A stretch of 42,470 bases of DNA from Candidatus Brocadiaceae bacterium (GTDB lineage Bacteria > Planctomycetota > Brocadiia > SM23-32), in NCBI GenBank assembly GCA_003551565.1, contig PUMZ01000323.1, positions 1-42,470 on the forward strand, read 5' to 3'. This document shows positions 33,583-35,205 of the stretch, one piece after another. The position numbers and the translations under genes are program-made. Numbering within the stretch: position 1 is the stretch's first letter; every line of letters begins with the position of its first letter. Under the pieces are notes generated by a model. The model saw only the letters and a list, made by a program, of their open reading frames with translations, was not told the DNA's origin and made no database searches.

Positions 33583-34185
33583 ATGTCAGCATTACGTCAG
33601 TTGTCAGGAGTGTTTGTCTGTGCGTTGATCGGGATAGCTCTTGCAGCCGGAAACATGACATGGGCCGGTGAAAACGGCGAAGAAGGGCCCGAGGTCCGGG
33701 ACGCCGTTGAGGCGGAGGAAGAGGATGTCCGCGCTCGCCTCGACCAGAGGCGGCGGGAAGCCCTGGAAAGGCTCCAGCGCGGTGAACGGCAGCGCACACC
33801 CGGCCTTGCCGCACTGCTTGCCTCCGAAGCGGTCGATGTTGCGGTCTCCGAGGAGGATGAGGACGGCAGTGTGACGCTTACCCTGTCTTCTGAGGATGAG
33901 GAGCTTCTCCAGCAGGTACGCCGCTCTGTGGAGCAATTGCTTGCGCAGCGGGAGCAAAGAGAGGCAAGACAGGAAGAAGCAAGACGCCAGGATGATGCGC
34001 GCGATGCCGTCAGGGAACGCCTGCGCGATCGCGGCGATATGGATGATGCCGAAAGGGAAGAACTGCGGCAAGAGCGCCGCCGGCGCCTCGAGGAACGGCT
34101 GGAAGGGATGGACGAGGAAACGCGGCAGCGTTTCGAAGAGCGGATGGAACGGATGCGCGAGCGCCGCGGAGGGCGAGGTGAATAG
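33583..34185 (+). CDS. Exported Arg/Glu-rich coiled-coil protein, unknown function
   Basis: This 200-residue protein starts after a very good ribosome site (GGGAGGTGGAAA), which decides for ATG 33583 over upstream in-frame starts. The N-terminus is a signal peptide or anchor (ALRQLSGVFVCALIGIALAAG, then MTWAG). The rest is highly charged and helical: an acidic stretch, a short hydrophobic patch TPGLAALLASEAVDVAV, an acidic segment EEDEDGSVTLTLSSEDEE, and a long Arg/Glu/Gln coiled coil to the end. I do not recognise a family. Its last roughly 48 residues (from MDDAEREEL through DEETRQRFEERMERMRERR) resemble the tail of the GspC-like protein encoded next. That suggests a functional link such as shared interaction or recent exchange of tails. 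Confidence 0.75.
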   Translation: MSALRQLSGVFVCALIGIALAAGNMTWAGENGEEGPEVRDAVEAEEEDVRARLDQRRREALERLQRGERQRTPGLAALLASEAVDVAVSEEDEDGSVTLTLSSEDEELLQQVRRSVEQLLAQREQREARQEEARRQDDARDAVRERLRDRGDMDDAEREELRQERRRRLEERLEGMDEETRQRFEERMERMRERRGGRGE

Positions 34186-34227
34186 CAGAATTAGCACCTG
34201 CGCTTAACTTTGCTGTTCTTTGCCGTC

Positions 34228-34256
34228 TTGACACGCGATCTGTTTCAGGCGATAAT
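34228..34256 (+). promoter_or_regulatory. Putative promoter of the GspC-like gene
   Basis: Consensus TTGACA (34228-34233), a 17-base spacer and GATAAT (34251-34256). The start near 34263 gives a leader of about 140 bases, so this gene can be expressed separately from its upstream neighbour. Confidence 0.6.
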
Positions 34257-34401
34257 ACACTGATGGTGTTGCCTCTGGCAACAGGTGACAGGCCGCGGTG
34301 GGCCGGGCAGGATGCAGGGGGTGAATATACAGGAGTCTTGCTCTGCAGAAGTCCCGGCCCGGCGGCAAGGTGTTTCTCTGGATACTTGCAGGTCAAATAT
34401 T

Positions 34402-35205
34402 ATGAGAATAACAACCCGGAAGACCTGGGGGCAAGTGTTGCTTGTGGTGAATATGTCGCTTCTGGCGGGATTGCTGTTTCTTCTCCTGAGGCCGTTTCCC
34501 GCACCGCATGATGCCGGGGCCGGCGAACCCTCTTCTCAGAGCGCCGTTGGGCATCAGGAATCTTCCGACACAGCCTTTTCGCATGGCTATGCTCCGGTGC
34601 CCACGGTGGAAGACTATGAGGCCCTTGCAGCAAGCGATCTTTTCGGGATCGGCCGTTCCGATACCCAATCCGCGGAGGTCGATGAGGTCGAACGGGCCGA
34701 AGAGGAATATACGCCGCCCCCCTTGCAACTGTTGGCCACCGTGGCGGGGCGCGGTCCGATTGCCCGGGCGGTCGTACTGAACCCGGACGGTGGGGGCGAG
34801 CAACGTCTGAAGGTCGGCGATACGATAGCCGGAGCGACCGTTCAGCGGATCGGTCCCAGGAGCATTACTCTCGCACGGGACGATCAGCTGTATGAGATCG
34901 GTATGGATTTTACAGGGGAGACCGGCGCTTCCGGCAGGGGGAGGCCCGAAGAAAGCGCAAGAGCGGTTACGGTGGAAACCCTTATTATCGGCAGGGGGGG
35001 GGAAGTTACACATTCTTCAACAGCCGAGGCGTCGGAAGCACCGGCGCGGGCAGCCCGGGGCCGGTGGGCGGAGATGGACGCAGACGAGCGCCGGGAGGCC
35101 ATGCGCCGAAGGTATGAAAGGGCGCTGGAGAATGCAGACCCGGAAACCCGGCGGCGGATCGAGGAAAGGATACAGCGCGCCGGGGAACGGATGCAGGAGC
35201 GGTGA
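34402..35205 (+). CDS. GspC-like type II secretion HR-domain protein with Arg/Glu tail
   Basis: This 267-residue bitopic inner-membrane protein has one transmembrane helix at about residues 11-29, then a proline/acidic linker. DYEALAASDLFG and an HR-type beta domain lie at about 105-168 (LQLLATVAGRGPIARAVVLNP, LKVGDTIAGATVQRIGPRSITL, LYEIGM). That order is that of GspC/PilP-type proteins, which link the inner-membrane platform to the outer-membrane secretin. A PDZ domain, present in many GspC proteins, is absent. Instead there is a charged tail (about 220-267: EMDADERREAMRR, DPETRRRIEERIQRAGERMQER) similar to that of the preceding protein. No gspD, gspE or other secretion gene is in the window. 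ATG 34402 is placed just before the basic residues that precede the helix; longer in-frame starts exist back to 34285. Confidence 0.72.
   Translation: MRITTRKTWGQVLLVVNMSLLAGLLFLLLRPFPAPHDAGAGEPSSQSAVGHQESSDTAFSHGYAPVPTVEDYEALAASDLFGIGRSDTQSAEVDEVERAEEEYTPPPLQLLATVAGRGPIARAVVLNPDGGGEQRLKVGDTIAGATVQRIGPRSITLARDDQLYEIGMDFTGETGASGRGRPEESARAVTVETLIIGRGGEVTHSSTAEASEAPARAARGRWAEMDADERREAMRRRYERALENADPETRRRIEERIQRAGERMQER

Follow-up and report, generated by a model that had tools for sequence, protein, structure and literature searches.

In GspC proteins, the 2P region is variable: it forms a PDZ domain in EpsC and OutC and a coiled coil or a single helix in XcpP, and it is absent in LspC (PMC12369372, PMC11981180). 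GspC proteins with helical C-termini are already known. The 2P region is thought to dock substrates (PMC11981180); for substrate recognition in type II systems, still an unsettled matter, this variable C-terminal region is one candidate site. As for the genetic background, ectopic gene conversion that homogenizes related sequences within a genome is described for the mtrA paralogues and the genes for RF1/RF2 (PMC4632066, PMC4530459).

The window analyzed here, a stretch of 42,470 nucleotides from a Candidatus Brocadiaceae bacterium, contains two adjacent genes, A and B (Table 1). Gene A encodes a small, probably exported protein, gene B encodes an additional, PDZ-less GspC, and both proteins end in a homologous Arg/Glu-rich hairpin. 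A GspC paralogue and a neighboring exported protein with the same hairpin make a simple, testable pair. Below, G000 denotes the window's own genome, G001 a sister species, and G002 a third species of the same genus.

Organization of the Locus

Table 1. Genes and features of the A–B locus (positions in the window).
Feature	Position	Strand	Description and basis
Gene A	33583..34185	+	ORF, 200 aa; exported-looking; a small domain (beta hairpin and helix) precedes a long helical C-terminus rich in Arg/Glu
Likely Sec signal peptide of A	33583..33666	+	Assigned by visual inspection of A and its orthologues; the likely cleavage site lacks a lipobox
Small domain of A	33805..33942	+	Beta hairpin and start of a long helix; motif like GVTLxLSSxDxE
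Tail of A	34039..34182	+	C-terminal Arg/Glu helical hairpin; AlphaFold model; resembles the B tail
Sigma-70-like promoter between A and B	34228..34256	+	TTGACA-17-GATAAT, 11/12; consensus scan
Gene B	34402..35205	+	ORF, 267 aa; PDZ-less GspC paralogue
N-terminal transmembrane helix of B	34423..34485	+	Helix 8–28 in the model; the sequence here is hydrophobic
HR (homology region) domain of B	34726..34902	+	Six strands, 109–167 in the model; Foldseek; PDB profile
Tail of B	35074..35202	+	C-terminal Arg/Glu helical hairpin at the position of the PDZ/2P region; homologue of the A tail

The ORF coordinates of both genes and the tail sequences quoted in the preliminary description proved exact on re-check. 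The pair is preceded by recG on the same strand and followed by argS on the opposite strand. The ArgRS of the window shares 71% identity with that of a Planctomycetota MAG and 62% with that of a Brocadiaceae MAG, which places the organism among the planctomycetes, probably close to the Brocadiia; a search of named genomes with B gave no match. Since a sigma-70-like promoter is located between A and B, co-transcription of the two genes is not required. The search against Rfam found no RNA element between them. In the sister species, the corresponding intergenic region (L017:5185-5256) carries a GC-rich hairpin, GCCGCCGGCCC...GGGCCGGCGGC, then GATTTTAG; this hairpin, which is possibly a terminator or an attenuator, is absent from the output of the consensus scan.

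Gene A

Orthologues of A are present in both G001 and G002. Their candidate cleavage sites, located by eye, lie between AVA and GDD in G001 and between AMA and EEG in G002, and protein A is probably exported by the Sec pathway. The AlphaFold model of A contains two strands (residues 84–91 and 97–103), a long helix (106–151), and the two tail helices (155–175 and 178–196, pLDDT about 92). Profile searches, including those against Pfam and NCBIfam, assigned A to no known family, and Foldseek detected no significant structural neighbor. In multi-domain relatives of A, the matches to DUF2218 and Flg_hook were weak and lay under the cut-offs of these families.

The two genes had been put forward as the best candidate for an undescribed pair, and for A this requires correction: it is not wholly new, since other proteins of the genome and of the family contain its small domain. 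Similar stretches were found in exported-looking proteins encoded by three other contigs of the same genome (C53, C65, and C173). The domain also occurs in two further genomes of the family, G005 (L045) and G006 (L044), apparently in three copies per exported-looking protein; these proteins carry a motif like DGVxxxxTSDDPE and match no significant Pfam family. The A profile aligns with almost the full length of the C53 paralogue, including the tail. Next to this paralogue (L041:2558-5646), which has a longer, repeated charged tail, lie the gene of an ECF sigma factor and a short gene of the anti-sigma type, both on the same strand. In the C65 protein (L040:2358-3997), the A-type domain is fused to another exported N-terminus; the gene after it shows a weak STN match and begins with a near-identical signal-peptide sequence. 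The shared start may be another sign of local gene-end duplication, perhaps a frequent process here.

Gene B Encodes an Additional GspC

The single N-terminal transmembrane helix of B, a feature of GspC proteins, aligns with that of canonical GspC, and B is 30–34% identical to the canonical copies. The structural model of B has low to moderate confidence. In a Foldseek comparison, its HR domain was similar to the GspC HR structure 3oss_C (probability 1.00, TM-score 0.79 by target, E=0.13); PilP (2y4y, 2ivw) and LspC were matched as well, with E-values that are not significant alone. The PDB profile match to LspC reached 3.9e-6 with an alignment that includes B. The Pfam family T2SSC matched B at 4.5e-5 and 23.8 bits against a curated cut-off of 27, and the score for the G001 orthologue was 25.3 bits, or 27.1 when its neighbors in frame are counted. 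The NCBIfam model GspC_delta gave 2.1e-7 and 31 bits, below its equivalog cut-off of 150, which the canonical GspC of this genome misses too (119.6). The assignment of a GspC-type HR domain in the preliminary description is thus borne out by the structural and profile comparisons, with both family scores for B lying below cut-off.

No PDZ match was found in B of either the window species or G001, whereas the canonical copy has one. B neither adjoins gspD nor lies within a T2SS cluster. The canonical gspC with the PDZ domain is located on contig C305 of the same genome and is followed by gspD, gspE, and gspF (the last two named from sequence). Among 11 relatives, two T2SSC matches per genome occur only in G000 and G001. 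Given the support for the HR domain and the presence of the canonical PDZ-bearing gspC on C305, B is an additional, PDZ-less GspC beside the canonical gspC-D-E-F set. Its 2P region is predicted to form a helical hairpin (helices 227–244 and 247–266) with a weak hydrophobic face. The genome also contains six secretin genes (L005–L010).

Similarity of the Two Tails

The tails of A and B are Arg/Glu helical hairpins of about 45 residues each. They align well, as had been reported, with a BLOSUM62 score of 93, and the match runs to the ends of both proteins. None of 5000 composition shuffles reached this score (mean 44, sd 6.5, maximum 75). According to the hydrophobic moment, seven of the eight tail helices analyzed are no better than shuffled sequences, and the helices are not clearly amphipathic.

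When the B tail alone was compared with its own genome, the leading non-self matches were the tail of an efflux membrane-fusion protein (E=0.0055) and the A tail (E=0.024). A non-circular profile was built from two A tails, those of the window and G002, with the converted G001 copy (see below) left out. In the window genome, the B tail was the only non-self match of this profile at E<=0.05 (20.1 bits, E=0.0023). Across 294 planctomycete genomes, unrelated charged helices scored up to 23.7 bits with the same profile, so that the worry about composition is fair and the window alone leaves some doubt; the weight of the similarity within the window lies in the matching gene being the adjacent one.

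As for other envelope proteins of the genome, where a search for the tail had been proposed, the membrane-fusion protein was matched by the B tail alone; with a profile of only A and B tails it obtained 19.4 bits, under the background of charged helices (up to 24.5 bits), and it was rejected as a third bearer of the tail, although it is retained as a lead. The link had looked attractive in single searches and with a profile that included the membrane-fusion protein itself. This MacA/HlyD-like protein, encoded in a TolC-MFP-MacB-like operon, ends in repeated helices of the DPExRERxLERL type that resemble the A and B tails, and such an end is found in all three species (L020:4746-6719 on contig C70 of the window genome, L050 in G001, and L126 in G002).

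Distribution of the Pair and Gene Conversion in the Sister Species

Of the two other species in the genus, one confirmed the co-occurrence of the two genes in relatives: in G001 (L017), A is again directly followed by B, despite flanking genes that are not recG and argS. In G002, A with its tail is present and B was not detected in an assembly that is about 83% complete. No such pair was detected beyond the genus. The orthologues of A and B differ at 55–63% of aligned residues, yet both tails have been kept after the species split. Since A carries such a tail in all three species, as does a full-length paralogue of A, the A tail is the more widespread one, and B probably gained its hairpin from A.

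In G001, the last 121 nt of A and B are 93% identical at the DNA level (blastn E=3e-49), and the similarity ends at the stop codons. The final 33 codons contain three mismatches in 99 nt, none of them at third positions, and codons for the same residue are identical in 30 of 31 cases. In the 21 tail codons just upstream of the converted end, this holds for 5 of 10, and the corresponding identity between orthologues of different species is 31–41%. When the mismatches were permuted 20,000 times, a clean stretch as long as this never arose. The genomes of all three species of the genus yielded no other copy.

As judged from the DNA, gene conversion has recently overwritten part of a tail that the two genes of G001 already shared. 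Four residues are present in the G001 A tail and in both B tails and are missing in the window and G002 versions of the A tail; this single indel weakly suggests that B was the donor in the conversion.

Interpretation and Alternatives

The identity of the G001 tails at the DNA level and at synonymous sites indicates that the tail homology is not compositional, which settles the concern on this point raised in the preliminary description. That the tails are merely two unrelated Arg/Glu helices is very improbable, and for G001 this reading is already refuted. The B tail does obtain fewer bits from the A-only profile than the best unrelated helices of planctomycete genomes; against this stand the shuffling result, the position of the sole non-self match in the adjacent gene, and the extension of the match to the end of both proteins. 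The chief rival of a docking model is neutral exchange, a substantial possibility short of even odds. According to it, the Arg/Glu helix is a low-complexity, recombination-prone coding segment, each tail is a soluble charged helix without a joint function, and two similar GC-rich stretches less than 1 kb apart would have given rise incidentally to both the shared tail and the conversion in G001. Such an explanation fits the similar-scoring charged helices in many unrelated planctomycete proteins, the low amphipathicity of the tail helices, the presence of A without detectable B in G002, and the near-identical signal-peptide starts of the C65 neighbors, which point to gene-end duplication as a possibly frequent event. 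It accounts less readily for the retention of both tails despite the divergence of the orthologues, for a pair that stays together while its flanks change, and for a tail that in B occupies the place of a functional domain.

It is also conceivable, if unlikely, that each tail binds a common third partner (the cell wall, a membrane surface, a secretin, or an assembly-platform protein), so that A and B would be co-localized without contact. A without B in G002 would then be accounted for, as would the tail of a similar type on the efflux membrane-fusion protein in all three species; however, the link to the latter protein lies under the charged-helix background, and the analysis pointed to no particular partner.

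The preferred reading is a docking model, to which we assign a probability of about 0.4. In it, B is a second, PDZ-less GspC with a single helix in the inner membrane; a flexible linker leads through the periplasm to an HR domain of the type that binds the N0 domain of a secretin, and a hairpin homologous to the end of A forms the 2P region. The tails of A and B would associate in the periplasm by like-with-like packing of helices, and the HR-bearing B could keep A, alone or in a complex, at a secretin. Gene conversion has since re-matched the tails in one lineage or more, and conversion together with selection would maintain their compatibility. The preliminary description had proposed a docking or assembly role for a shared tail next to an HR domain; of this, the homology, the HR domain, and the position of the tail in place of 2P stand, and the docking role itself, which we infer, is plausible. 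Against docking speak the promoter between A and B, the occurrence of A without detectable B in G002, the detection of the pair in a single genus, and the small hydrophobic face of the tails, and a single conversion event in G001 can be chance. The more specific proposal of a GspC paralogue and a small exported partner with the same homotypic docking hairpin, matched by conversion and serving as a dedicated accessory dock or substrate dock on a type II-like secretion system, is rather doubtful.

Comparison with Known Systems

PDZ-type GspC proteins (EpsC, OutC, PulC, and here the C305 copy) resemble B in having an N-terminal transmembrane helix, a periplasmic linker, and an HR domain. In contrast to them, B has no PDZ domain, lies outside the gsp cluster as an extra copy, and ends in an Arg/Glu hairpin common to its neighbor. 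To our knowledge, XcpP-type GspC and LspC are each the only GspC of their system, and we know of no report of a helix that they share with a neighboring gene. Like B, these proteins combine a transmembrane helix and an HR domain with a 2P region that is helical or absent (PMC12369372, PMC11981180), and LspC is the best PDB profile match of B; unlike them, B occurs alongside a PDZ-type GspC. The literature searched yielded no case of an additional GspC with a C-terminus that is homologous to that of an adjacent exported protein and has been homogenized with it by conversion. PilP of type IV pili has an HR-like fold similar to that of B (Foldseek 2y4y, 2ivw). PilP is a lipoprotein, whereas B possesses a transmembrane helix and a charged tail and has no pilMNOQ neighbors. 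As for gene conversion, the events described for mtrA and RF1/RF2 concern related sequences, whereas the conversion between A and B acts on the 3' ends of adjacent genes that are otherwise unrelated; conversion between such tails is an unusual genetic trace of possible matching.
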